From contig CANLMI010000002.1 of the NCBI GenBank assembly GCA_947492375.1, positions 373,529 through 437,528 of the forward strand: 64,000 bases of DNA, given 5' to 3'. The stretch is from an uncultured Kordiimonas sp. (GTDB lineage Bacteria; Pseudomonadota; Alphaproteobacteria; Sphingomonadales; Kordiimonadaceae). The position numbers and the translations under genes are program-made. Positions within the stretch are counted from its first letter, which is position 1, and every line of letters starts with the position of its first letter. A model generated the notes under the pieces. That model saw nothing but the letters and a program-made list of their open reading frames with translations, had not been told where the DNA came from and did not search any database. Positions 12,158 through 50,895 of this stretch are shown here, piece by piece.

Positions 12158-13003
12158 TCAACGAACCGGCAAACCTTCTTCAATTGGTAAACTTTCATCT
12201 TGTGACCACTCATTCCAAGATCCAAAATATGTAGCAACATTTTCGAAACCAGCCTGTTTTAAAGCAACATAAGTATTTGATGTTCGTGAACCTTTAAAGC
12301 AATAAAGCCATACAGGCTTAGAAAAATCCATACCAATATTCAAACATTCGGCCCGAATCTCCGAAGGTGATTTAACTCGGCCATTTGGTTTCATCATACG
12401 ATACCATTCAAGCCACTTAGCACCTGGTATGCGCCCCCGACGAGGCGAAAAATACTTACCATAAGGCGAACTACTCTCTCCGATCCATTCATCTACATCT
12501 CTGACATCCAATAATGTTACCTCGTTTTTAGATAGCTGCGCTAAAACATCATCCTTACCAACAATCATATCAATGCCATCGTCAGTAAGTTCAAAAGCCT
12601 TTGTTACAGGTTTAGGCACATGATCTGTTATCTGATAGCCTGCATTTATCCAGGCCATTAATCCACCATGCAATACATACGAAGAACTATTTCCTAAATA
12701 AGAAAGCATAAAGTGCCCTCTGCATGATTGGCCAAAACCTGTCCCCATACCCTGCTCATAAAAGACAACAAGCTGATCTTTATCAACACCTGCTTCTCCG
12801 AATTTCTTCGCAAAATGTTCACGCATATCTTGCATACCTTGCGGTGTAGAAGAAGCAAGATAAGTGAAAATTTCATGAATATTTACGGCATTCTGCAAAT
12901 GATATTGTGCATACTCTTCCGGACTACGTGTATCAATAATCACGACATCCTTCTCTTGTATCAACTCATGTAATTCACAGGGTTCAATCAAAATTTTCGT
13001 CAT
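12158..13003 (-). CDS. Sulfurtransferase with two rhodanese domains
   Basis: A protein of 281 aa when started at the ATG ending at 13003, where GGATAAG lies just upstream; the in-frame ATG at 13015 would add four residues. Domain 1 (IIDTRSPEEYAQYHLQNAVNI, about 23-43) is the inactive rhodanese repeat. Domain 2 carries the active-site loop YCFKGSRTS with the catalytic Cys, as in thiosulfate or 3-mercaptopyruvate sulfurtransferases, which pass sulfane sulfur to thiols or cyanide. It follows the cupin gene by 16 bp. Coexpression with a GST and a ChrR-type cupin suggests a thiol or oxidant-stress role. The loop does not decide between the two substrates. Confidence 0.82.
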   Translation of the reverse strand: MTKILIEPCELHELIQEKDVVIIDTRSPEEYAQYHLQNAVNIHEIFTYLASSTPQGMQDMREHFAKKFGEAGVDKDQLVVFYEQGMGTGFGQSCRGHFMLSYLGNSSSYVLHGGLMAWINAGYQITDHVPKPVTKAFELTDDGIDMIVGKDDVLAQLSKNEVTLLDVRDVDEWIGESSSPYGKYFSPRRGRIPGAKWLEWYRMMKPNGRVKSPSEIRAECLNIGMDFSKPVWLYCFKGSRTSNTYVALKQAGFENVATYFGSWNEWSQDESLPIEEGLPVR

Positions 13004-13019
13004 TAACTTATCCATAAGA

Positions 13020-13712
13020 TCAAGCATTGGATACACGGTTAATCTGTTCATTAACCAGTGATAAATTACCATGTTTAATCCAGACTTTCGCACCTGCCTG
13101 GCCTGCCACGGCAGCAACCGTGCCGCCAACAGGCACACGTAACCAACTATGCTTCACTAAAGTATCATCCTGCTCAGTGAACTCACCGTCTAAAACGAGA
13201 AACTCAGCCCCCTCACTCGCTGTAAAGCCGACTTTCGTACCCGGTGCCCACGTTTGCACTTCAACCCTTTCCCTCTCATCGCTATATAGCGGCGTGATCG
13301 CAACCCCTTCATTTTCGCGCGTTTGAACTGGCTCCATAAAATTCATATTTAAACGTACATGCGTTCGATCATCTGGTTCAAATTGCCAAAGCTTCACAAA
13401 GATCACGCATCCCGGCTCAGAACCTGGCGTATGACTTGATTGTGGCGGGTTGCGAATATAGGAACCAACAGGAAAATCACCATGTTCATCCTGAAAAACA
13501 CCTTCCAGCACAATAAATTCCTCACCGCCCGTATGAACATGCGGTGAAAACTTACTACCCGGGTCATATTTTACTATTGTTGTCGCACGTGCAACTTCAT
13601 CGCCGACACGGTCTAATGGGCGCCTTGCAACACCGGGCATAGGTGAATTTATCCAATCCATAGCTTCACTATGAACGACGACACGTTGATCAAAATCAGC
13701 ATTAATTTTCAT
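13020..13712 (-). CDS. Double-cupin protein, ChrR-type
   Basis: A protein of 230 aa with two cupin folds. The first holds the metal-binding pattern HVHTGGEEFIVLEGVF near residue 60, and PPQSSHTPGSEPGC follows as the second motif. The second half (VEVQTWAPGTKVGF, then EGAEFLVLDGEF) repeats the fold with fewer metal ligands. The sequence resembles the cupin domain of anti-sigma factor ChrR, but the zinc-binding anti-sigma N-terminal domain is absent, so it is not a full anti-sigma factor. It may be an acetylacetone-dioxygenase-like enzyme or a sensor. It is 45 bp downstream of the GST gene in the same direction. Confidence 0.75.
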   Translation of the reverse strand: MKINADFDQRVVVHSEAMDWINSPMPGVARRPLDRVGDEVARATTIVKYDPGSKFSPHVHTGGEEFIVLEGVFQDEHGDFPVGSYIRNPPQSSHTPGSEPGCVIFVKLWQFEPDDRTHVRLNMNFMEPVQTRENEGVAITPLYSDERERVEVQTWAPGTKVGFTASEGAEFLVLDGEFTEQDDTLVKHSWLRVPVGGTVAAVAGQAGAKVWIKHGNLSLVNEQINRVSNA

Positions 13713-14669: not shown

Positions 14670-16691
14670 ATGAAATATATATCGTCGTTATTGATGATTA
14701 TTATATTAGCTGCCTGCGGGGCAGAAACAGGTTCAGAACAAATATCAGAGCCAAATGCTAAAATTTCACGCCATAGTAGCCCAACAGAAAATGAAGCGCC
14801 TGAGTTATATGTTGATAACTTTCAACTGCTAGACCACGAAGGTTTTGCACACGAACTATATTATCATGACGAAGCGCCTGCGATCGTTATCATGGTTCAA
14901 GGGAATGGTTGCCCAATTGTCCGCAATGCCTGGAGTGATTTCAAAACGATACGTGACGAGTATGAAAGCCAGGGCATTCCTTTTTACATGTTAAACGCAA
15001 ACAAACAGGATACCCGTGATCGTATCACAGCTGAGGCCGCTGAATTTTCATACGACCTTCCAATCCTGAAAGACGATACACAATTGATCGCAGAATCGCT
15101 TAATATTACACGCACTGCCGAAGTGTTGGTGATTTCGCCCAGCGACTGGAGTATTATATATAGAGGCCCTGTTAATGACCGCCTTAGTTATGGCCAGCAG
15201 CGCAATGAGGCGAAAAACCACTATCTAAAAAATGCTATTGATGCCGCTATGACCGGAGCCGCAGTTGACGTTCCAATACGCAAAACCAAAGGGTGTATCG
15301 TCAATTTGCCAGAAACAAAAAAACGCACAGAACACACTCAGATCAGTTACAGCGACACCATTGCCCCTATGCTGGTAAAAAATTGCGCCGAATGCCATCA
15401 GGAAGGTGGTATCGGACCGTGGGCAATGACCGGATATGATATGATCGAAGGTTTTGCGCCAATGATCAGAGAAGTCGTTAGAACCCAGCGAATGCCCCCA
15501 TGGTCGGCTGATCCCCATATTGGTAATTTCCATAATGAACGCCGCCTAACACTCGATGAACAACGCACCCTCGTTCACTGGATTGAAGCTGGTGCACCGA
15601 GGGGGAATGGCCCTGACCCACTGGCGGGCCGCAAAAGTAATGCAGCTATTTGGCCGCTTGGGGAACCAGATTTAATTATCGAAGCACCAGCTTTTGATGT
15701 TCCTGCCTCAGGCATCATTGATTATCAATTTCCAACAGCTTTAAACCCGTTAGGCCGTGATGTTTGGGTGAAAGCTGTAACTGTTGTACCGGGTGACAAA
15801 ACAGTAGTTCATCATGCCTTGGTAGGGTCCTCAGAAACAATTACCCCTCCCGGCCAAGGGGACGGCGATGATGTCTTTGAAAACTATCTGATCGGATTTG
15901 TTCCAGGGGCTGAAAGCTATGTTTACCCTGAAAATACAGGCGTACTTGTCAAAGCCGGAGGAGAGTTTCGTTTCCAGATGCATTATACAACATCAGGAAA
16001 GGCAACAACCGACAAAACCAAACTCGGCCTCTATTTCCATGAAAAGGAACCTGAGCATCACTTACGTCAACAAGTTGCGATAAATTTCCAAATTGATATC
16101 CCGGCGCACGCTGATAATCATCAGGAACAAGCATATTTTGAATTTGACCATGCTGCAACACTGTACATGCTATTCCCGCATGCCCATTATCGTGGCAAGT
16201 CCAGTGAATTTGCTGTTGTTTACCCAGATGGCCGAGAAGAAATGATCTTGTCTGTCCCCAAATATGATTTCAATTGGCAACATTCTTATAACCTCAAAAG
16301 GCCTTTGAATGTCCCTGCTGGATCACGCTTGATCCATCGCACACGATACGATAATTCAGGTCGAAACCTTGCGAACCCAGACCCGAATACAAACGTTAGG
16401 TGGGGCTTGCAATCCGCCGAAGAGATGCTTTATGGCAGCTTCTTCTTTCGGTGGACGGATGAAAGCAAAAACAATTTGCTCCACGATCCACTACAATTCA
16501 ACCTGAGACAATATTATGGCTTTGCCGACAGAAACATGGACGGCAAATTGTCCCGGTCTGAGGTTGGTGGAAACCTAGCTAAGTCATGGGATGCTGGCCA
16601 ATTAAAGCAAGTTGATCAAGATAACGACAACGCATTATCCTTTGATGAATTCTATGCAATGCAAAAAGCAAGAAGAAATCAAAGCCGCTAA
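14670..16691 (+). CDS. Lipoprotein with redoxin, haem-binding, copper-monooxygenase-like and EF-hand modules
   Basis: A protein of 673 aa. A lipobox (IIILAAC, Cys16) predicts a lipid-anchored envelope protein. Residues about 45-200 form a thioredoxin/redoxin fold with a single Cys (GNGCPIVRN, Cys81). A haem-attachment motif CAECH (239-243) and the following MPPW (275-278) match the cytochrome-like segment seen in such fusions. Residues about 330-600 resemble the C-terminal half of copper type II ascorbate-dependent monooxygenases, with possible ligands VVHHAL (381-382), QMHYT (438) and HAHYRGK (504-506). Two EF-hand-like loops (DRNMDGKLS, DQDNDNALS) end the protein. The substrate is unknown. 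GAGGGGAAG supports the start. Confidence 0.75.
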   Translation: MKYISSLLMIIILAACGAETGSEQISEPNAKISRHSSPTENEAPELYVDNFQLLDHEGFAHELYYHDEAPAIVIMVQGNGCPIVRNAWSDFKTIRDEYESQGIPFYMLNANKQDTRDRITAEAAEFSYDLPILKDDTQLIAESLNITRTAEVLVISPSDWSIIYRGPVNDRLSYGQQRNEAKNHYLKNAIDAAMTGAAVDVPIRKTKGCIVNLPETKKRTEHTQISYSDTIAPMLVKNCAECHQEGGIGPWAMTGYDMIEGFAPMIREVVRTQRMPPWSADPHIGNFHNERRLTLDEQRTLVHWIEAGAPRGNGPDPLAGRKSNAAIWPLGEPDLIIEAPAFDVPASGIIDYQFPTALNPLGRDVWVKAVTVVPGDKTVVHHALVGSSETITPPGQGDGDDVFENYLIGFVPGAESYVYPENTGVLVKAGGEFRFQMHYTTSGKATTDKTKLGLYFHEKEPEHHLRQQVAINFQIDIPAHADNHQEQAYFEFDHAATLYMLFPHAHYRGKSSEFAVVYPDGREEMILSVPKYDFNWQHSYNLKRPLNVPAGSRLIHRTRYDNSGRNLANPDPNTNVRWGLQSAEEMLYGSFFFRWTDESKNNLLHDPLQFNLRQYYGFADRNMDGKLSRSEVGGNLAKSWDAGQLKQVDQDNDNALSFDEFYAMQKARRNQSR

Positions 16692-22989: not shown

Positions 22990-23198
22990 CGCTAATTGAC
23001 CAATCTATTTCTGCAAACCCTGTTACCCATATAACATATACGAAATACGCATTTAATTACGCGCCAGCACCTAAATAATAGTGTCAGCCGTTAACTAATG
23101 CACAGATGGTTAGACTACTAAAACCCTTTATTTGACACCTATCAAATAACGAATACTATAGACCTCTAATAAAAGCAGTGGGGCAGCTAGTTCAAAGT

Positions 23199-24254
23199 AT
23201 GACACGAGTAACAATCAAAAAATATTTTCTTTCTGCTTATGCCTTATGGTTCATATGTCTTTCTACGCCGCTAACCGCTGATGATAATTGTTCTTTCAAA
23301 TTCACCAGTGCCCAGATTGACCAAGACTTGTTTCTGGAACCCATTCCCGGAGCGAATGAGGATCGCGATTATACGATGGGCCTTTTCATCCGGTTTAATA
23401 GTTGCCGGAAGGGATCAAGCTGGTTTTCAGGGCATGAAGTACAACATTTATTACTGGATGCGCTATCAATCAGCGATTCACAAACACAGTTCAAATATAG
23501 TACAGTTTTTGAAAGCCTCACTTACACCCCTGATAACCTTGCAGCAGAAGCCCCTGTTTTTGAGGATAGGCCCTATAGCTCTATTCTACAGGTTACCAAT
23601 AATTTAGTCGCTTTTAAAAATGCAGCCAGTTCTGCGACAGAGGTTAGTCTCTCATTGGGTTTTCTGGGTTTACCTGTAAGTGAATGGGCGCAGTTAGGCA
23701 TCCACCAAGCACTGCGCGGCATTACTGGCGGCGAGGAACCCGTCGACCCTGAAGGGTGGAATAATCAGATATCAAACGGCGGTGAACCAACAGCAAAACT
23801 TGCACTGACATGGTTCTATCGCCAGAATCTACGGGCTAAATGGGTTGATATCGTTTATTCCACTGGCGCTAATATCGGTTATCAAACAGGCGTAAATTTA
23901 GGTATTTCAGCACGTTTCGGGCTTTTAAACAAGACAAAGCCTGTTTGGCAAACAGACCGCGCTGGCGGGTATCTTACCAAAAGAAGCCCCGAACGAGAGC
24001 TTTATGCAATATTTACAAACCGGATTAATTTTGTTGGGTATAATGCACTCTTACAAGGCCAGTTCAGAGGCAACCCCCATGAGCTCTCAACCTCAGAGAT
24101 CGAAAGATTTGTTTTTGAAAACTCTCTAGGTATTGGCTGGCAAAACAATAAAAGCGATTGGCTTTTTTCCTGCACAAGACGCACTTCAGAGTTTGACTTA
24201 GCCGAGCGGCGTAGCCACTTTTTTTGCGGTTTAAATTTTGCCCGATCATTATAG
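23199..24254 (+). CDS. LpxR-like outer membrane lipid A deacylase family protein (DUF2219)
   Basis: A protein of 351 aa from the ATG at 23199; a GTG at 23178 would add seven residues. A signal peptide is likely (YALWFICLSTPLTA). The opening FTSAQIDQDLFLEPI, then DRDYTMGLFIRF, and the segment LGFLGLPVSEWAQLGIHQALRG are typical of the LpxR/DUF2219 family, 12-stranded outer-membrane barrels that remove the 3'-acyloxyacyl chain of lipid A. The candidate catalytic histidine is in QLGIHQALRG. It stands alone, with 188 bp before the next gene. Enzymatic activity is inferred; some family members have no known activity. Confidence 0.75.
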   Translation: MTRVTIKKYFLSAYALWFICLSTPLTADDNCSFKFTSAQIDQDLFLEPIPGANEDRDYTMGLFIRFNSCRKGSSWFSGHEVQHLLLDALSISDSQTQFKYSTVFESLTYTPDNLAAEAPVFEDRPYSSILQVTNNLVAFKNAASSATEVSLSLGFLGLPVSEWAQLGIHQALRGITGGEEPVDPEGWNNQISNGGEPTAKLALTWFYRQNLRAKWVDIVYSTGANIGYQTGVNLGISARFGLLNKTKPVWQTDRAGGYLTKRSPERELYAIFTNRINFVGYNALLQGQFRGNPHELSTSEIERFVFENSLGIGWQNNKSDWLFSCTRRTSEFDLAERRSHFFCGLNFARSL

Positions 24255-24317
24255 GCGTTGGCAATATTTAAACCGTGAAGCCATATTAACATACTATCAT
24301 GCGTTAAGTTATTATTT

Positions 24318-24339
24318 CCATTATCACTGAAGATAATGG
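24318..24339. other. Intergenic hairpin
   Basis: CCATTATC (24318-24325) pairs perfectly with GATAATGG (24332-24339) over a 6-nt loop, 63 bp after the LpxR-like stop codon. There is no T-tract, so it is not a standard terminator. It may be an mRNA-end structure or a protein site. Confidence 0.3.
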
Positions 24340-24442
24340 TCTGGTTACGTTTAACACCGTATATATCCACTAAATAACGTGCATACTTTTTTAAGATATT
24401 TAAGTAATAACATTAAAATGCTTATTTATTTGGGGAAACATT

Positions 24443-25564
24443 ATGCATAGCAAAGAACCTATTAAACCCGGCGGTGGCCTAATTAGCGGGTTAATAGCAA
24501 ACTTTTTAGCAATTCTAACCTTCTTAGGCGTTATTAGCTTCCATTTTCCTGAATACTTGACCACACCTGATTTACGGGCGGTTTATGACATAGATATTAT
24601 AAGAAAAATGATGTTTGGCGCCCTTGTTATAGCAGGCAGTCTTGGCATGTTAAATTTCCTGCGCGGTAAAAGCAGGCGTTTGGGGCTTATGGCATGTTTT
24701 TTTGTTATCCTGTCCATCGCCCTGGGCGGGCATAGGGTTGAAGTCATTGATTTTTCCGATAACACTCCATACCTAGGCCTAGACTGGTTTATTCTTGACC
24801 TGCTTGGCTCCTCAGTTGTGTTTATATTGCTTGAAAAACTAGTGCCCTTCCGCAATCAATCAGTTTTACGCAAAGATTGGCAAACCGATCTAAATCATTT
24901 TCTTCTAAACCACCTGATTGTGGGCTTTGTGCTTCTAGCCTCTAATATGTTCGTACACACATATTTTAGCTGGGCGATTAACACTGACATACAGAACATT
25001 GTGAAAGACATGCCATTCATCCTTGAATTGTTTATCATTCTATTGGCAGCAGATATGATGCAATATTGGTCCCACCGCGCATATCATGAAATCCCTGTAT
25101 TATGGCGACTACATGCCGTTCATCACAGTATCAAGCATATGGACTGGTTAGCAGGTTCCCGCCAACACATTATTGAAATATTCATCACACGCTCACTCGT
25201 ACTTGTACCCGTTTTCGTTATGGGTTTTTCAAAAGAAGTCATTGATGTTTATGTTATAATTGTTGGTTTTCAGGCGGTTTTTAATCATGCAAATGTTCAG
25301 ATTAGTTTTGGCCCCCTAAAATATATCTTTGTAACACCACAATTTCATCACTGGCATCATTCTTCTGACGAAGCAGGCCTTGATAAGAATTATGCACTAC
25401 ATTTCTCTTTTCTTGACTATCTTTTTGGAACAGCTGTCAAGGGAGAGCAAGAATGGCCTGATGGATACGGTGTAGTTAGTGATTATGTTCCCAAAGGAAT
25501 TATCAAACAACAGGCATTTCCATTTACTTGGGACGGTACAAGTAAAAACAACAAGGCAAATTAA
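24443..25564 (+). CDS. Sterol desaturase / fatty acid hydroxylase family membrane protein
   Basis: A protein of 373 aa with four or more predicted membrane segments in the first 200 residues. The di-iron histidine boxes of the superfamily are HRAYH (211-215), HAVHH (224-228), NHANV (281-285) and HHWHH (302-306). Enzymes of this group hydroxylate or desaturate sterols, carotenoids or long-chain lipids at the membrane. The precise substrate cannot be told. GGGGAAAC lies before the ATG. The gene ends immediately before a strong bidirectional terminator. Confidence 0.85.
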   Translation: MHSKEPIKPGGGLISGLIANFLAILTFLGVISFHFPEYLTTPDLRAVYDIDIIRKMMFGALVIAGSLGMLNFLRGKSRRLGLMACFFVILSIALGGHRVEVIDFSDNTPYLGLDWFILDLLGSSVVFILLEKLVPFRNQSVLRKDWQTDLNHFLLNHLIVGFVLLASNMFVHTYFSWAINTDIQNIVKDMPFILELFIILLAADMMQYWSHRAYHEIPVLWRLHAVHHSIKHMDWLAGSRQHIIEIFITRSLVLVPVFVMGFSKEVIDVYVIIVGFQAVFNHANVQISFGPLKYIFVTPQFHHWHHSSDEAGLDKNYALHFSFLDYLFGTAVKGEQEWPDGYGVVSDYVPKGIIKQQAFPFTWDGTSKNNKAN

Positions 25565-32120: not shown

Positions 32121-33287
32121 TCAGTTTGACAAAAAATTTCGACTTTTATTCTTGTTTGTCACTATATAAAAGAAACATGCAAAATAGATCAAAATTACAA
32201 GAGCCCCTATCCATTGAATTTCAATAAAATCGCTCTGAAAAGCTATAGTCAACAGCGATAAAACAATGGAATTTCCCAGCCAATATTTTAGCCTGCCAAA
32301 ACGCTCGACCGTGAACCCTAAATTATCGGTGTAAAGACGTATTAAAGAGTCAAGTGAGTTGATAACAAATGTGACACCAACAAAAACCATTGACCAATTC
32401 ATGATGTTGGTAATAGGCCACTCATTCTGATGATATTGATAGAGAATCGTAAACCATAAAGCTATCGGGATGGATGGTACGATTATCATGGCAATCATCA
32501 CTTGATAAGTTTTCATTCCTCCGACAAACCGGGCGGTAAACTGGCCAATCATGATGCTCCAAGCGAACCACCAATAGAGATAAAACTCGTGATAATCATT
32601 GATAGGTAGTATAAATTTTTCAATATTGGCAAAATAGCCACTGACAAGCCCTAGTGTATTCAAGGAATCCGAGAAGCTGTTATTCTCTTGAAACGACACC
32701 AGCCATAAGAAGAACATAAGTGTAAAGAACAGCAACGAACTACCAACACTGAGTATTTTTACATATTTGATATCGGTACTGGAAAAGGCTGCAATTCCAA
32801 TAACAACCAGTACAATAGATCCAAAAACATACCGGGCACCCTCTTTGTCCGCAACATCAGATAGATACCACGGCAAATTGCTGAATAACAGATACGCTGT
32901 GAAGGCGCATGTACCGATGATAACAAGGTTATTCAGAAATTTAACGATGCTAATTTCGAAAAAACGAAACTTAGGCTCAAGTACGCAAAAATAAAAACAA
33001 GTCAGAAAATAGAAACCCCAGATTAAAAAACCCCAAAAGCCAAATTCAATCGCCAATGGATTAGTCAAACCATACTCAGGATTTGCGGTTACATCGGCAT
33101 ATGTACCAAATTCAGTGAGCGGGAACATAATAAGCCCCACGTCCAAACCAGATGTGAAGAGAATAGCTGTAAAAACAAGTGGATGCGCCGGGCTAACACC
33201 TTCGCACCGCATATTGCCATAGCGAAAAAGTGTGAAAACAATCGCCGCAAACGTAAATATAAGCCCCGTGCTAAGCCAGATCGTCAT
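32121..33287 (-). CDS. Shortened BCCT-like transporter in the bet operon
   Basis: A protein of 388 aa with about 10 predicted membrane segments. YWWFAWSIMIGQFTARFVGG lines up with the BCCT tryptophan box of the transporter at 29107 (YWAWWISWSPFVGMFIARVS), and FTSGLDVGLIMFPLTEF lines up with its glycine-rich helix (FSAGVGIGMVFYGAAEP), though the GxGxG pattern is changed. Relative to that protein it lacks about 80 N-terminal residues and much of the C terminus. It lies 45 bp downstream of betA in the same direction, which fits choline uptake. Whether it is active cannot be told. Confidence 0.65.
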   Translation of the reverse strand: MTIWLSTGLIFTFAAIVFTLFRYGNMRCEGVSPAHPLVFTAILFTSGLDVGLIMFPLTEFGTYADVTANPEYGLTNPLAIEFGFWGFLIWGFYFLTCFYFCVLEPKFRFFEISIVKFLNNLVIIGTCAFTAYLLFSNLPWYLSDVADKEGARYVFGSIVLVVIGIAAFSSTDIKYVKILSVGSSLLFFTLMFFLWLVSFQENNSFSDSLNTLGLVSGYFANIEKFILPINDYHEFYLYWWFAWSIMIGQFTARFVGGMKTYQVMIAMIIVPSIPIALWFTILYQYHQNEWPITNIMNWSMVFVGVTFVINSLDSLIRLYTDNLGFTVERFGRLKYWLGNSIVLSLLTIAFQSDFIEIQWIGALVILIYFACFFYIVTNKNKSRNFLSN

Positions 33288-43475: not shown

Positions 43476-45062
43476 TCAATTATCGCACAGCTCGGCCCAA
43501 GTTAAACCGAATTTACTTAAATATTTTCGAAGCCTGTCAGCATCGTTCGGTTGCTTCTTATTTTGCCTTGAAACCGCGAACAATTTACGTCCAGCCTCGG
43601 AGATAGATTTTGAGTTTCGACATACATTGATGACTATTTCAAGCTGTGCTTGATCAAACAGGTCAATATTCTCTGCATGCAGGCCTGACACACTACCTAA
43701 CACTTCACAGCTTCGCGGCTGGGCTGACTTCCATTGCCGTTTCAGCCTTTCGATTTCACTGGATACTTGCTCTACACCAATCCTACCACCTCGAGCAAAG
43801 GTTGCCATTCGGGTAACTGCTGCAGACAAATCCCTGAAATTCGCTGACCACAAGGCTTTACTTGATAAAGCAAACTTCAGAAAGCGCTCTCGCGCTTCCT
43901 TATTAAACGTCACACGGTCACCGCTTTGCCCAGCATAACGATGTAATTCATAATCAAGGTTTGGCTCAATGTCTTCTCGCCGCTCTGCCAACCCTGGCAA
44001 ATCAAATGTCCAGAGGTTAAGGCGAGCATAAAGATCTTCCCTGAAATTCCCTTGCAGAACTGCTTCGCTTAAATCCTTATTTGTTCCTGCAATCAACTGG
44101 AATTGACTATCTGTTTCTTGATCAGCTCCTACAGGCATGAACTTGCCATCCTCAATCGCTCGCAACATCATAGCCTGTTCGTCCAAGCCCAGCTCGCCAA
44201 TCTCATCCAGGAACAATATACCTTTATCGGCGGACTTTAACAGGCCAGCTCGGTCAGACTGTGCTCCAGTAAACGCGCCGCGCTTATGACCAAACAGCGC
44301 TGACATAGCACTATCGCCCCTAAGTGTTGCGCAGTTCACCTCAACAAAGCGCCCCTTCACTTGATGACGATTTTGCTTAAGGTTATAAATTCGACTAGCC
44401 AACTGGGATTTTCCAGCACCCGTTGGTCCCATCAAAAGGACGGGCAGAGTTGACCTGATTGCAACCTGCTCGATCTCATCGATCATCACATTAAAGGCCT
44501 GATTTCGTGTTTCAATCCCTGACTTCAGAAAAGAAACCCCTTCCTTCTTTTCACTCGCAAACCGGCTTGCAAGCAAATCATATTTCGACAGGTCAAGGTC
44601 AATAATTTGATAAGTTCCTGGACCGATGTGCCCGCGCGAAGGTGATACCTGCATCAATTTAGCAGGGAAATGATGACTCTCTGACATCAAAAACATACAA
44701 ATCTGAGCAACATGTGTGCCGGTAGTGATATTAATCAAATACTCTTCTCGCTCAGGTATGAATGAATAATTCTGAGCAAAGTCAAAAAGGGCCCCATAGA
44801 CTTCCTCGAAATCCCACGGGTCTTCAATGATGATTTCGACACAATTCACTTCAGTTTCAGGCGAAACTTGCCACATATCACGCGCTATCCGCTGCGCCAA
44901 TGCTTTGTGACGCCGGTCATACAATAGCTCATAGCGATCTATTACCAAATCTTCATGCATACATGTCGCGACAGTAGGCCGCCAACGATGCCAACGCTTA
45001 TCGCCTTTTCCAGAGTCAAGCGTTGTGCCCAGGAAGCCAACAGCAACCATTTTCTTAGCCAT
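43476..45062 (-). CDS. rtcR: Sigma-54-dependent activator of RNA repair, RtcR
   Basis: A protein of 528 aa, the usual RtcR length. Residues about 5-165 form the CARF-like sensor (VAVGFLGTTLD, then YLINITTGTHVAQICMFLM). The AAA+ domain has Walker A GPTGAGKS (212-219), the sigma-54 contact GAFTGA (262-267) and Walker B ILFLDEIGEL (282-291). A C-terminal HTH follows (VINVCRNSKSISEAGRKLF). RtcR responds to RNA ends produced by damage and switches on rtc genes with RpoN. It is divergent from rtcB, whose -24/-12 promoter is evident. Confidence 0.94.
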   Translation of the reverse strand: MAKKMVAVGFLGTTLDSGKGDKRWHRWRPTVATCMHEDLVIDRYELLYDRRHKALAQRIARDMWQVSPETEVNCVEIIIEDPWDFEEVYGALFDFAQNYSFIPEREEYLINITTGTHVAQICMFLMSESHHFPAKLMQVSPSRGHIGPGTYQIIDLDLSKYDLLASRFASEKKEGVSFLKSGIETRNQAFNVMIDEIEQVAIRSTLPVLLMGPTGAGKSQLASRIYNLKQNRHQVKGRFVEVNCATLRGDSAMSALFGHKRGAFTGAQSDRAGLLKSADKGILFLDEIGELGLDEQAMMLRAIEDGKFMPVGADQETDSQFQLIAGTNKDLSEAVLQGNFREDLYARLNLWTFDLPGLAERREDIEPNLDYELHRYAGQSGDRVTFNKEARERFLKFALSSKALWSANFRDLSAAVTRMATFARGGRIGVEQVSSEIERLKRQWKSAQPRSCEVLGSVSGLHAENIDLFDQAQLEIVINVCRNSKSISEAGRKLFAVSRQNKKQPNDADRLRKYLSKFGLTWAELCDN

Positions 45063-45213
45063 TACTATTATCCATATTTATAAAGTACGATTATTTTATA
45101 TATATTTATCGCATTACAAGCAACCACCCTCTAAGCAACGAAAACATGAATAGATATAAATAGTTCAATATGTTCAGTATCTTAAATCATAAAATATTTT
45201 CAAAAACCAAAAC
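45063..45213. other. Divergent rtcR-rtcB intergenic region
   Basis: An AT-rich spacer of 151 bp between the rtcR start and the sigma-54 promoter. It should hold the rtcR promoter and the upstream RtcR-binding sites. ATTTATA near 45075 and TATAAAT near 45156 are opposed half-sites that could belong to an activator site, but I cannot identify one with confidence. Confidence 0.3.
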
Positions 45214-45229
45214 TGGCACACCTCCTGCT
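45214..45229 (+). promoter_or_regulatory. Sigma-54 promoter of the rtc operon
   Basis: TGGCACACCTCCTGCT has the -24 GG (45215-45216) and the -12 GC (45227-45228) separated by 10 bp, the fixed spacing of RpoN promoters. Transcription should start at about 45239-45241, giving a leader of about 140 nt before rtcB. The divergent RtcR activator gene fits. Confidence 0.85.
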
Positions 45230-45239
45230 ATATCACAGG

Positions 45240-45350
45240 CACAGCAAAACAGATTTTGCTCCCGCGCCCTGAACAGATTGGGGGCAGAAGTCAAAAGGCT
45301 TGCGGTAACGGGCTGTGGGAACCGGGTAATTACCGAGGCGCGGGAGCAGG
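45240..45350 (+). ncRNA. Structured GC-rich leader RNA of the rtc operon, cloverleaf-like
   Basis: An 11-bp perfect stem joins GCTCCCGCGCC (45258-45268) to GGCGCGGGAGC (45337-45347) and can extend outward with a T-A and G-U pairs. Inside are a 5-bp hairpin with an AAAA loop (AAGTC 45288-45292, GGCTT 45297-45301) and a 6-bp stem (CGGTAA 45303-45308, TTACCG 45330-45335); 45269-45287 could form a weak third arm. This gives a multi-branch fold about 90 nt long. In some bacteria rtc operons encode Y-RNA-like (YrlA) RNAs with tRNA-like parts; I do not see the T-loop sequence that would prove this. It could be a leader structure or a processed RNA. Confidence 0.5.
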
Positions 45351-45380
45351 ACAGAAAATTGAGTAGGTTAGGAATAGAAA

Positions 45381-46616
45381 ATGTTTGAACAGAACTTTGA
45401 AACAATTAACGGCGAAAGCCATGCGCCCGTGAAAATGTGGACAAAAGGTGTGCCTGTCGATGAAGGCGCTAAAACACAGCTTACTAAGGCGGCATCCATG
45501 CCCTTTATTCACAAACATATTGCGGTTATGCCGGATGTACATGTTGGCATTGGTGCAACAATTGGGTCTGTTATTCCAACTAAAAATGCAATCATTCCAG
45601 CAGCTGTAGGAGTAGATATCGGCTGCGGCATGATGGCAGCGAAAACAGAGTTAAAAGCTAATGACTTACCTGACAACTTGTTCGGTATCCGCACCGCCAT
45701 AGAGCGCGCAGTACCTCATGGCATGACCCCATCACGCAGTCGAAGGAAAGGACGTGATAAAGGATCATGGCATGATATACCGGAACGCTCAGCAAAAGCA
45801 TGGATTGGCCTTGTGGATGGATTTGATCATATCTGCGATAACATGCCTGCAATCAAAAATACTAATAATGTGAATCACATGGGTACGCTTGGCACAGGCA
45901 ATCACTTTGTTGAAGTCTGCCTTGATGAAGATGATCAGGTCTGGATCATGTTACATTCAGGCTCACGTGGTGTCGGCAATGCAATTGGGCGTCGTTATAT
46001 CGAACTTGCGCGCAAAGACATGGAAAAGTGGATGATTAACTTGCCAGATAAAGACCTTGCATACTTCCCAGAAGGCACAGATCATTTCAATGACTATGTT
46101 TTTGCCGTTGAATGGGCGCAGGATTATGCCCGTAAAAACCGCGAGGTTATGATGGCAAATGTGATTGAAAGCATTCAAGCCGAACTTGGCCGCATGTTCA
46201 GAGCAGATATAGAGGCGGTAAACTGTCACCATAACTATGTGACACGCGAAAATCACTTTGGTGAAAATGTTTTCGTAACCCGCAAGGGAGCCGTGAGAGC
46301 ACGTAAAGGCGATTTGGGTATTATCCCAGGCTCAATGGGCGCGCGCTCATATATTGTTCGCGGCCTCGGTAATGAAGAAAGTTTCTGCTCATGCAGTCAC
46401 GGCGCTGGTCGGGTGATGAGCCGGACAGAGGCTAAAAAACGCGTGAGCCTTGAAGAACATATCACGGCAACCGCCGATGTTGAATGCCGCAAGGACAAAG
46501 GTGTTATCGACGAGACACCATCTGCCTACAAAAACATCGATGATGTGATGGAAGCACAGAAAGACCTTGTTGAGATCATGTATACATTGAAGCAAGTTGT
46601 ATGCGTTAAGGGGTAA
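45381..46616 (+). CDS. rtcB: RNA ligase RtcB (3'-phosphate/5'-OH joining)
   Basis: A protein of 411 aa, near the E. coli length. Manganese ligands are visible: Cys82 in AVGVDIGCGMMA, His175 in LGTGNHFVEV, His192 in LHSGSRGVGN and His284 in CHHNY. The histidine that takes GMP is His340 in SCSHGAGR. RtcB joins RNA 2',3'-cyclic or 3'-phosphate ends to 5'-OH ends with GTP, for tRNA repair and splicing. AGGA 7 bp upstream supports the start. It is the first gene of the sigma-54 operon. Confidence 0.96.
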   Translation: MFEQNFETINGESHAPVKMWTKGVPVDEGAKTQLTKAASMPFIHKHIAVMPDVHVGIGATIGSVIPTKNAIIPAAVGVDIGCGMMAAKTELKANDLPDNLFGIRTAIERAVPHGMTPSRSRRKGRDKGSWHDIPERSAKAWIGLVDGFDHICDNMPAIKNTNNVNHMGTLGTGNHFVEVCLDEDDQVWIMLHSGSRGVGNAIGRRYIELARKDMEKWMINLPDKDLAYFPEGTDHFNDYVFAVEWAQDYARKNREVMMANVIESIQAELGRMFRADIEAVNCHHNYVTRENHFGENVFVTRKGAVRARKGDLGIIPGSMGARSYIVRGLGNEESFCSCSHGAGRVMSRTEAKKRVSLEEHITATADVECRKDKGVIDETPSAYKNIDDVMEAQKDLVEIMYTLKQVVCVKG

Positions 46617-46631
46617 AACACGGGGCTAAGG

Positions 46632-46652
46632 CCTCGTAAATGAAATACGAGG
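46632..46652 (+). promoter_or_regulatory. Hairpin covering the ribosome binding site of the gene after rtcB
   Basis: CCTCGTA (46632-46638) pairs perfectly with TACGAGG (46646-46652) over a 7-nt loop. The 3' arm contains the GAGG that would serve the ATG at 46658, and an alternative ATG at 46640 lies in the loop. Folding would limit translation of the downstream gene unless ribosomes open it. Confidence 0.45.
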
Positions 46653-46657
46653 GTAAC

Positions 46658-47200
46658 ATGGATAATGAAAATTTCTTTGGCTGGGCAAGATCTTATTCAG
46701 TTAGCAGCAAAAACGGGCTAGAAATAGGCGTCTTGAGAATACATACTCAGCCACTATCGTCATGGAAATCAGAGATGCGCTCTGTGCTGGAAGTCCAATG
46801 TCATAAGCCTTTGTTTAACCTAAGCTCTAAAGAGGTTAGCGAGTTAGATGAAATAACCAGCGCTCGCAGATTAGAGGAGAAGTTAATTCTTGAGTCACAT
46901 TGTCTATCTGAACCAATAGAGCTTCAGGCCGCTAAGTTTGAAATGAAATGGGTGGAACCGAAACTCGAAGAATGGGCGGAAGATTATCATGCCTCACTCG
47001 AAAGAAGCCAACACACTGTACAGCAATGTAATGAGTTAGCAGACGTACTTAATAAATTACAAAGCCTAATTGCTGAAGAAATGGAAAGAACTAGAAGAAT
47101 TGAAGAGTTTATAGAGTCTGACCGAAACCTAATACGACATAGTAAATTTCTGAAACGACTGAATGAAATTACCAAGACCGTAGACTTAAGAATAAAATGA
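46658..47200 (+). CDS. Unknown coiled-coil protein of the RNA-repair operon
   Basis: A protein of 180 aa from the ATG at 46658 (GAGGG just upstream); an ATG at 46640 would add six residues. I do not recognise it. The N-terminal half (FGWARSYSVSSKNGLEIGVLRI) looks like a small beta-rich domain. Residues about 100-175 are strongly heptad-like (LADVLNKLQSLIAEEMERTRRIEEFI) and predicted coiled coil. No membrane segment is seen. Its stop overlaps the start of the nucleotidyltransferase gene by 4 bases (ATGA), so it is firmly part of the operon. Confidence 0.7.
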   Translation: MDNENFFGWARSYSVSSKNGLEIGVLRIHTQPLSSWKSEMRSVLEVQCHKPLFNLSSKEVSELDEITSARRLEEKLILESHCLSEPIELQAAKFEMKWVEPKLEEWAEDYHASLERSQHTVQQCNELADVLNKLQSLIAEEMERTRRIEEFIESDRNLIRHSKFLKRLNEITKTVDLRIK

Positions 47201-48030
47201 CTATCACAAAAAACATATCACCATCAGCTCATACCGAAATCATGGAAAACCTGAATACAGTCCAAAGCGACAATGATGTACGCATTTTATTTGCGATTGA
47301 AAGTGGCTCACGCGCATGGGGCTTTCCATCGCCTGATAGCGATTACGATGTTCGGTTTGTATATGCTCATTCGCCGGATTGGTATTTAACAACAACACCG
47401 GGGCGCGATGTCATCGAATTACCATTATTCGACGAAAATACGCACTATGAAAACCGCTACGAGCACGATCTGGATATCAATGGCTGGGATTTAAAGAAAG
47501 CCTTAAACTTACTCATGAAGCCAAACCCGGTTTTGCTCGAGTGGCTTTCAAGCCCGATCAGATATATGTGGAACGAGGAAGCCTGTGACGATTTAACTGC
47601 TCTTTCAAGAAAAGCTACCTTTGGGCCTGCTTGCCTAAATCATTACCTAAACCTTGGAAGGCGCCAGTGGAACACTTATGTTGGCGACAAAGCTGAGGTC
47701 AATCTGAAGAAATATTTTTACATCGTTCGCCCCGCTATGGCGATCAGATGGTTAAGGATGAATCCTGATATAACGCCTCCAATGAACTTTTATGATTTGA
47801 AGGCGGGTATTAATTTATCAGCGAATCTTAATGAACAACTGGACGAACTCCTTGAAAAGAAAAGTCGCTCAAAGGAACTTGGTGAAGCCAAAAGAATAGG
47901 TATCGTTGATAAGTTCGTAATGGATGAGTTTTTCTGGGCATCAGAAGCTGTAAAAACAACACCCAAAGCCTTTAACAACCTGCAAAATGAAGCGAACGAC
48001 ATCTTCAGGAAATGGATTAAAAACCAATGA
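47197..48030 (+). CDS. RlaP-type nucleotidyltransferase
   Basis: A protein of 277 aa of the polymerase-beta-like nucleotidyltransferase fold. The catalytic signature is GSRAWGFPSPDSDYDVRF (residues 37-54), with Gly37-Ser38 and Asp49/Asp51 as metal ligands; Asp93 in HDLDINGWDL is a candidate third acidic residue. The following wording (KALNLLMKPNPVLLEWLSSPI) is typical of PF10127, named RlaP for RNA-ligase-associated pathway, often found beside RtcB. A role in adding nucleotides to RNA ends has been proposed for the family. It overlaps both neighbours by 4 bases. Confidence 0.85.
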   Translation: MTITKNISPSAHTEIMENLNTVQSDNDVRILFAIESGSRAWGFPSPDSDYDVRFVYAHSPDWYLTTTPGRDVIELPLFDENTHYENRYEHDLDINGWDLKKALNLLMKPNPVLLEWLSSPIRYMWNEEACDDLTALSRKATFGPACLNHYLNLGRRQWNTYVGDKAEVNLKKYFYIVRPAMAIRWLRMNPDITPPMNFYDLKAGINLSANLNEQLDELLEKKSRSKELGEAKRIGIVDKFVMDEFFWASEAVKTTPKAFNNLQNEANDIFRKWIKNQ

Positions 48031-48476
48031 GACCCAGAGGTATATTGAAGGATATCGCATATGGCTTCTGCAACACCTTTAATAGCCGAAACAATGATGT
48101 TGATGGCTATTGGGGTATCGGAGTTTTATACCTGCATGCCATTGAGCATAATACTCAGGTAGTATGTATTGACCTTTTGCGACGCACAATCAGCCCAAAA
48201 AGTAATCGATTACAAATATTGGCAAACACTTATGCTAACTATATTTCGAATAGGGCTAATCAATATGGCTTACCAAATGATTGGATAACAGCCGCAACCG
48301 TGATGCTCAGGTTTAATTGTACTGAAGGCGCACAACCTTACCGTTCAGCTTGCGGTGACCCGTATGTAATCGAAATGTCATTTCAGGCCAAAACAGGTTT
48401 CCAACATACTAATCAAAAAACAGGCTATTGCCGCCCACACAACCCCAAGCGTGAACGACGCAGGTGGAATGATTAA
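48027..48476 (+). CDS. Unknown protein of the RNA-repair operon
   Basis: A protein of 149 aa, basic at the C terminus (CRPHNPKRERRRWND), which suits nucleic-acid binding. The middle reads SRNNDVDGYWGIGVLYLHA, then VVCIDLLRRTISPKSNRLQILANTYANYI. I do not recognise the family. It overlaps the RlaP gene by 4 bases (ATGA) and precedes rtcA by 29 bp, so translation is coupled to RNA-repair genes. Confidence 0.7.
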   Translation: MRPRGILKDIAYGFCNTFNSRNNDVDGYWGIGVLYLHAIEHNTQVVCIDLLRRTISPKSNRLQILANTYANYISNRANQYGLPNDWITAATVMLRFNCTEGAQPYRSACGDPYVIEMSFQAKTGFQHTNQKTGYCRPHNPKRERRRWND

Positions 48477-48505
48477 ATTAACAACACTTATTGTATAAAT
48501 AAAAA

Positions 48506-49543
48506 ATGAAAAAAATAATAAAAATTGATGGTAACAAAGGCGAAGGTGGCGGGCAGGTTCTGCGCACCAGCCTTAGCCTTTCAATGATAACTGGGCACCC
48601 TTTTATCATAGAGAATATTCGCGCAAACAGGAAAAAACCAGGCCTGATGCGTCAGCATCTAACCTGCGTTAAAGCAGCGGCAACTATCTGCGACGCTACA
48701 ATTGAAGGCGCGGAGCTTGGTGCAGGCACCGTTTCTTTCTTTCCAAATGCGGTAAAGGCTGGCAAATATGATTTTTCGATTGGCACTGCAGGCAGCACAA
48801 TGCTTGTTTTGCAAACCTTATTGCCGGCCTTAATGCTAACGAATAATCCATCGAAACTGCATTTGAGTGGCGGTACACATAATAAACAAGCCCCAAGCTT
48901 TGAATTTATCAACAATGCGTATATACCCATGCTTGCCAAAATGGGGGTGCATATTGATGGTTCGCTGGAACGTCGTGGTTTCTTTCCAGCGGGCGGTGGT
49001 CAAGTCGCCTTTAGCATCACACCGACTACGAAGTTAAACCCAATCGACCTCAGTGACGGCGGCAATATCAAAAAGGTTCTGGCGAAAGCTATTTTAGCTA
49101 AAATTCCTATAAACATTGGACCGCGCGAATTAAAGGTTGCCAAATCACGCCTCAATATCGATGAGGCGAACTGCATAGTAATTGATGATCGTAACACCGA
49201 CGGCCCCGGCAATACGTTCTGTATTGAAGTTCAGCATGAACATTTGACGGAAGTTTTTGTCCAACACGGCGAACTTGGCGTTTCCGCAGAAAACGTGGCC
49301 AAAAACGCCTGCCGTTCTGCTGCGCGGTATTTACGCGCACCTGATGCGGCTGTGGGCCCATATCTCGCTGATCAGCTATTGCTGCCGATGGCACTGGCAG
49401 GCAAAGGCAAGTTTACGACGTTACGGCCCAGCCTGCATACAACAACAAATATCGATACGATTAAACAGTTTCTCGATATTGATATCCAATTAACTGAAAC
49501 TGGTGATGGTGTTTGGACCATTGAAATAGGGAGAAAATTTTAA
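48506..49543 (+). CDS. rtcA: RNA 3'-terminal phosphate cyclase
   Basis: A protein of 345 aa. It opens with IDGNKGEGGGQVLRTSLSLS, the RtcA signature, and has the insert-domain motif RRGFFPAGGGQV near residue 157. The histidine that takes AMP is His311 in TLRPSLHTTTNID. RtcA converts RNA 3'-phosphates to 2',3'-cyclic phosphates, the form some ligases and toxins act on. Its stop overlaps the next start by one base (TAATG). Its presence with RtcB defines the rtcBA core of this operon. Confidence 0.95.
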   Translation: MKKIIKIDGNKGEGGGQVLRTSLSLSMITGHPFIIENIRANRKKPGLMRQHLTCVKAAATICDATIEGAELGAGTVSFFPNAVKAGKYDFSIGTAGSTMLVLQTLLPALMLTNNPSKLHLSGGTHNKQAPSFEFINNAYIPMLAKMGVHIDGSLERRGFFPAGGGQVAFSITPTTKLNPIDLSDGGNIKKVLAKAILAKIPINIGPRELKVAKSRLNIDEANCIVIDDRNTDGPGNTFCIEVQHEHLTEVFVQHGELGVSAENVAKNACRSAARYLRAPDAAVGPYLADQLLLPMALAGKGKFTTLRPSLHTTTNIDTIKQFLDIDIQLTETGDGVWTIEIGRKF

Positions 49544-50818: not shown

Positions 50819-50895
50819 TGGTGGGCCCTGCAGGACTCGAACCTGCGACCAAACCGTTATGAGCGGTTTGCTCTAACCAACTGAGCTAAGGGCCC
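50819..50895 (-). tRNA. tRNA-Ile2 (anticodon CAU)
   Basis: A 77-nt gene that includes an encoded CCA. The acceptor stem is GGGCCCT with AGGGCCC, the anticodon loop is CTCATAA on a CGGTT-closed stem, and the T arm is GCAGG-TTCGAGT-CCTGC. The CTCATAA loop and the overall sequence match tRNA-Ile2, whose CAU anticodon is read as AUA after TilS adds lysidine, rather than elongator Met. The putative transposon end lies 9 bp beyond its 3' end. Confidence 0.88.

Follow-up and report, generated by a model that had tools for sequence, protein, structure and literature searches.

The gene at 14670..16691 (+) of the window, a stretch of 64,000 nucleotides from an uncultured Kordiimonas sp. (assembly GCA_947492375.1, contig CANLMI010000002.1, positions 373,529 to 437,528 of the forward strand), encodes a protein of 673 residues. 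Over the whole chain of inference from sequence and structural model, this protein is on balance probably related to the non-coupled binuclear copper monooxygenases, the class of PHM and dopamine beta-hydroxylase (DBH), anchored in the cell envelope and supplied with electrons by its haem. The enzyme class is known; in this bacterial form it is fused to a c-type haem domain and accompanied by a redoxin. The original prediction, made from the DNA alone, had placed four kinds of module in a single envelope lipoprotein, and this is what a single open reading frame holds at exactly these coordinates: in N- to C-terminal order, a lipobox-bearing signal peptide, a redoxin (residues 46-216), a haem-c domain, a copper core (residues 326-604) and two EF-hand loops. 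The predicted full-length model has a mean predicted local distance difference test score (pLDDT) of 87.8 and a predicted template modelling score of 0.83, and the gene is present once in its own genome.

The signal peptide and its lipobox LAAC (residues 13-16; 14670..14717, +), identified by eye, mark the protein as a bacterial lipoprotein, with lipidation predicted at Cys16; a similar LxxC box is seen, again by eye, in 10 other alphaproteobacterial rows of alignment A1. Neither a lyase domain nor a DOMON domain is among the Pfam matches for the 673-residue chain, a diverged copy of the latter being possible.

Copper ligands and fold of the core

Profile and model comparison place a PHM/DBM-like double jelly-roll copper core at 15645..16481 (+). 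Within it, profile alignment and conservation assign the CuH ligands to His381 and His382 (15810..15815, +; PHM H107 and H108) and His438 (15981..15983, +; PHM H172), and the CuM ligands to His504 and His506 (16179..16187, +; PHM H242 and H244) and Met586 (16425..16427, +; PHM M314). PDB titles of PHM structures name mutants of H107, H108 and H172 at the copper site and a mutant of M314; H242 and H244 we take to be the CuM ligands. Failure of the histidines to align with known copper ligands had been named beforehand as what would refute the prediction; all six ligands fall on those of both rat PHM and human DBH. On DBH, H381/H382/H438 lie on H262/H263/H333, H504/H506 on H412/H414, and M586 on M487 (DBH ligands as numbered in an excerpt of PMC4846438).

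Compared with solved structures, a profile of 40 core sequences (alignment A2) found human DBH at E = 4.3e-6; its sole other match up to E = 10, an S-layer protein (E = 0.082), was taken as chance. A profile built from 29 cores of wider diversity matched DBH with E = 1.1e-11 and, with E = 5.6e-11 (1opm), rat PHM (1opm, 1sdw); the six ligand columns are aligned and the terminal Met is reached. All 40 aligned relatives, some of them closely related, share C239, C242 and H243 of the haem motif, M275, and the copper ligands H381, H382, H438, H504, H506 and M586; among the 29 diverse rows all six copper ligands are kept in 28, and in the 29th (L064) a base is masked at the second His. When modelled alone (pLDDT 91.9), the core superimposes on DBH (PDB 4zel) with Z 23.0 and a root mean squared deviation of 2.5 over 257 aligned residues, and on PHM entries with Z 17.9-22.7; the next family, PNGase F, follows at Z 8.4. 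A Foldseek search with the full-length model likewise ranked PHM first (3mll, E = 3.2e-15). The prediction of a copper monooxygenase is thus sustained by the aligned histidines, by Met586, which it had not named, and by the PHM/DBH fold of the model, and the core is quite probably a monooxygenase of PHM/DBM type. At the level of sequence, L056, a protein from another Pseudomonadota genome, links the bacterial family to the annotated enzymes: it scores above the cut-offs of both Pfam copper models, and the family profile finds it at 2.4e-35.

Compared with DBH, the core of the window protein is preceded by a redoxin and a haem-c domain and followed by EF loops; compared with PHM, the protein has the fused haem-c domain and redoxin as well as Phe at the position of Arg240, and it shares Gln at the positions of Q170 and Q272 (counted on the alignment).

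The haem-c domain, the redoxin and the constant unit

Alignment and profile search delimit a c-type haem domain at 15339..15599 (+), with the attachment motif CAECH at residues 239-243 (15384-15398) and the segment MPPW at residues 275-278, whose Met275 (15492) is the likely distal haem ligand. The CxxCH motif and the MPPW segment are invariant among the aligned relatives, and all 29 haem segments of the diverse set match Cytochrome_CBB3 at E<=0.01. The segment resembles small c-type cytochrome domains (Cytochrome_CBB3, Haem_bd); it differs from these in the short spacing, 32 residues, between the haem His and the likely distal Met. The same genome encodes CcmE (E = 3.2e-32), which marks the maturation pathway of c-type cytochromes and was the sole Ccm gene searched for.

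To follow the modules through the family, 59 non-identical members were read, comprising 39 of 40 first loci, the window, the same-genus copy and 18 sequences from whole-genome searches. CxxCH...MPP precedes the copper core in the same reading frame in 57 of them; the remaining two have the haem unit behind an in-frame stop (L070) or a frameshift (L076), so that no copper core was read without an upstream haem unit (0/59). L070 and L076 share one Gemmatimonadota bin, and the separation of haem and copper there may reflect sequencing error or split genes; six-frame examination of the DNA around each of these broken copies revealed no redoxin. Of the 59, 23 combine haem and copper units but lack a redoxin; the haem unit is in frame in 21 of these and split off in the other two. 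Because the haem unit is found in frame in 57 members, the redoxin in 36 and strict EF loops in 26, the constant unit in these sequences is haem plus copper, and the redoxin and EF-hands are additions to it. The original prediction had argued from the order of the domains that haem delivers electrons to copper. Domain order turns out not to be the ground for this; the linkage of the two units in relatives supports such a flow indirectly, and haem-to-copper electron feeding is the best reading of the sequences.

The redoxin domain (residues 46-216; 14805..15317, +), assigned by Pfam, profile and model, contains Cys81 (14910) and Cys209 (15294). Its AhpC-TSA match at residues 50-150 scores 28.3 bits, above the cut-off of 26, and it groups with the thioredoxin-like proteins 2ywi, 2cvb and 3u5r (profile E 6.8e-9 to 7.3e-8), on which the model superimposes with Z 21.7-22.3 over 171-175 residues (2ywi at Z 22.3). 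These share with it the fold and the CP and distal GC cysteines. A CxxC active site such as that of 2cvb is absent: the first-Cys position (QGNGCP) is Gly in the window protein and in 30 of 36 redoxins, and Cys in none of the 36, leaving C81 and C209. The domain had been described as a single-Cys redoxin, which does not hold, C209 being as conserved as C81: both are kept in all 27 redoxin-bearing rows of alignment A1 and in 35 of 36 in the wider set, and both are lost in the remaining one. This joint keeping and single joint loss suggest that C81 and C209 are a working pair, which would form a disulfide. The exception, L055, is a redoxin-bearing paralogue that keeps all haem and copper ligands; L057, its paralogue in the same genome, keeps both redoxin cysteines. 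On the tree the redoxin-bearing members fall into two clades (2 changes), and EF loops account for 3 changes. Since a single redoxin clade is also compatible with the tree test (approximately unbiased test, p = 0.158) and so is not rejected, neither one nor two origins of the redoxin fusion are claimed.

Proposed mechanism and its alternatives

How electrons move between two distant copper sites, and what serves as the required single-electron donor, are long-standing questions for PHM and DBM. In the window protein, the haem would be reduced by periplasmic electrons from a cytochrome or a quinol-linked carrier and would pass them singly to CuH (H381, H382, H438); O2 would bind at CuM (H504, H506, M586), and a C-H bond of a small or lipid-like substrate would be hydroxylated. 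The haem domain would then stand in for ascorbate (vitamin C), the donor of the animal enzymes that produce noradrenaline and amidated peptides, and its fusion to the core suggests a different, built-in source of electrons. The redoxin would most likely keep the copper sites reduced, or load them, through a Cys81/Cys209 thiol-disulfide couple. The analysis shows the architecture, the identity of the ligands, the fold of the model and the linkage of the units; the presence of copper and haem, electron flow from haem to CuH, O2 binding at CuM, hydroxylation and the thiol role of the redoxin are inferred. A natural version with covalent haem on the same chain would allow electron delivery to be tracked by haem absorbance. 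In a search by title and abstract opening, with most subscription journals and preprints outside its coverage, no description of a bacterial haem-c-fused form with redoxin was found. The PHM/DBM class is called widespread in eukaryotes in an excerpt of PMC8812541, and a natural version of this kind would show that it has a broad branch in bacteria as well.

Several results weigh against this assignment. Cu2_monoox_C (PF03712) scores 21.7 bits at residues 498-566 against a cut-off of 23 (23 when scored with frame neighbours) and is matched by 22 of the 40 relatives at E<=0.01; PF01082 gave no match in the protein's own genome; and the alignment of the 29-core profile with PHM and DBH is least certain near the Met ligand. 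The window's own haem segment lies below the curated cut-offs of Cytochrome_CBB3 and Haem_bd, and haem segments match solved cytochromes weakly (best E 0.0022). The 59 relatives are non-independent samples, and 30 of the 50 matches from five whole genomes lie outside the reading of these 59. Finally, no neighbour is common to the Pseudomonadota loci beyond groups of three or four.

The core might have kept its fold and ligands in a protein that carries copper, senses copper or oxygen, or acts as an O2-reducing oxidase with no hydroxylation step, haem and redoxin serving copper redox cycling. A thioredoxin-fold domain beside copper does resemble Sco-type copper loading, and the lack of a conserved neighbour in Pseudomonadota would fit; yet the whole two-domain core is kept in addition to the six ligands, seemingly more than a carrier needs, and the position of PHM Q272 is Gln (Q537 here) in 26 of 29 rows and His in three, so that we regard these roles as unlikely. 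The haem might instead leave copper alone and form, with the redoxin that adjoins it in the chain, a separate peroxide- or thiol-handling unit. That 23 of 59 haem-copper pairs do without a redoxin, and no copper core does without a haem unit, indicates that haem is tied to copper and not to the redoxin, and makes such a unit decidedly unlikely. A peptidylglycine hydroxylase proper, amidating secreted peptides, would have the same core and ligands as PHM. Arg240 of PHM, which presumably binds the carboxylate of the peptide substrate, is however replaced by Phe502, at a position that is variable among the 29 rows (Arg in two), which argues against peptide amidation; counting on from M586, Tyr588 and Ser590 occupy the positions of PHM residues 316 and 318, and this identity is highly improbable.

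The original prediction had further proposed calcium control, on the strength of the two loops behind the core. Loop 1, DRNMDGKLSRSE (residues 620-631; 16527..16562, +), fits D-x-D-x-D-G-x-hydrophobic-x-x-x-E, and loop 2, DQDNDNALSFDE (residues 649-660; 16614..16649, +), deviates from it by Asn instead of Gly at position 6; both were recognized by sequence and Pfam, with a best EF-hand score of 24.2 against a curated cut-off of 25.9. Two near-canonical loops, and the finding of strict loops in 26 of the 36 members with a redoxin and in none of the 23 without one, would suit an enzyme switched by Ca2+ at its EF-hands. The strict pattern is nonetheless absent in 33 of the 59 members, ten of them redoxin-bearing, including the gammaproteobacterial rows L013-L016; as the loops of L018 are degenerate, the number of redoxin-bearing members that truly lack them is at most ten. 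EF-type loops are, moreover, frequently structural. Beyond the presence of the two loops, calcium control is accordingly not borne out and a calcium switch is improbable; in some lineages the EF-hand pair is an optional extra, probably with a structural role.

Distribution, neighbours and other features of the window

With the full-length profile, thioredoxin-like proteins came first among solved structures, followed by calmodulins (best 60 of 438 matches); because calmodulins filled this list, the copper and haem segments were searched apart. Of 118 genomes in the order, 10 encode a member of the protein family, all inside the window's own taxonomic family. In Pseudomonadota as a whole the protein family is rare, its own profile finding it in at least 3 of 398 genomes, the window's genome included (up to 6 candidates scored per genome); PF01082 is matched in 1 of the 398. 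Whole-genome searches gave 8 matches in G494 (Planctomycetota), 24 in G495 (Acidobacteriota) and 14 in G496 (Gemmatimonadota), bins whose taxon names may be wrong, and 1 and 3 in the gammaproteobacteria G497 and G498. Three reading frames of G495 match in two pieces, so its 24 matches represent about 21 frames; paralogues are thus expanded to about 21, 14 and 8 reading frames in G495, G496 and G494, some of them close together on a contig. On the tree, the Pseudomonadota rows form one supported clade, minus L056 (on a long branch outside), and the named Planctomycetota rows form another, with L077, from the same planctomycete bin, far outside.

Comparison of neighbours across genomes, which had been proposed as a check, covered flanks of up to 6 kb around 40 loci and the window. 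Nothing is widely shared in Pseudomonadota. In the planctomycete clade of 14 rows, by contrast, a gene that looks like an MMPL/sterol-sensing/RND transporter lies immediately downstream, in the same orientation, in 8 of the 13 copies with readable downstream DNA (L017, L020, L021, L022, L023, L024, L029 and L074/L081), L020 and L021 being near-copies; Pfam confirmed MMPL for four of the eight. It is present in 8 of 9 copies of the clade's crown group and absent beside L019, L032, L064, L069 and L071, with L018 unreadable downstream. L082 and L083, which are more distant and come from the same genome, lack it too, giving 8 of 15 examined overall. MMPL proteins are known chiefly as lipid exporters, and the downstream gene is for this reason a lead to hydrophobic substrates. 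Searches of the window with MMPL queries found no relative. As a tentative wider picture, to which we give rather less than even credence, these proteins may belong to a large, essentially unstudied, multi-phylum bacterial family of PHM/DBM-type hydroxylases, with about 21 reading frames in one bin, in which single electrons come from a fused c-type haem and not from ascorbate, a two-Cys redoxin keeps or loads the copper sites in one branch, and, in Planctomycetota, hydrophobic molecules exported by the neighbouring MMPL/RND pump are acted upon.

A role in histidine use was considered and dropped: hut genes adjoin the window copy and do not adjoin its counterpart in a same-genus genome, which is 83% identical. 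This counterpart lies near genes that look like choline/betaine oxidation; in the window, a short BCCT-like protein of 388 residues (32121-33287) stands beside genes resembling choline-to-betaine oxidation by eye, the cluster that the same-genus copper gene adjoins.

Elsewhere in the window, the listed ends of rhodanese-like and ChrR-cupin open reading frames overlap (12158-13712), the true start of the rhodanese gene probably being later than listed. An RNA-repair-like cluster lies at 43476-49543, whose genes we take from their sequences to be RtcR-, RtcB- and RtcA-like; within it, the open reading frame at 46640-47197 matches no Pfam family at E<=0.001. The sole RNA gene listed in the window is a tRNA-Met (cat) at 50819-50895 (-). 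At 23178-25564, an LpxR-like outer-membrane protein adjoins a fatty-acid-hydroxylase membrane protein.
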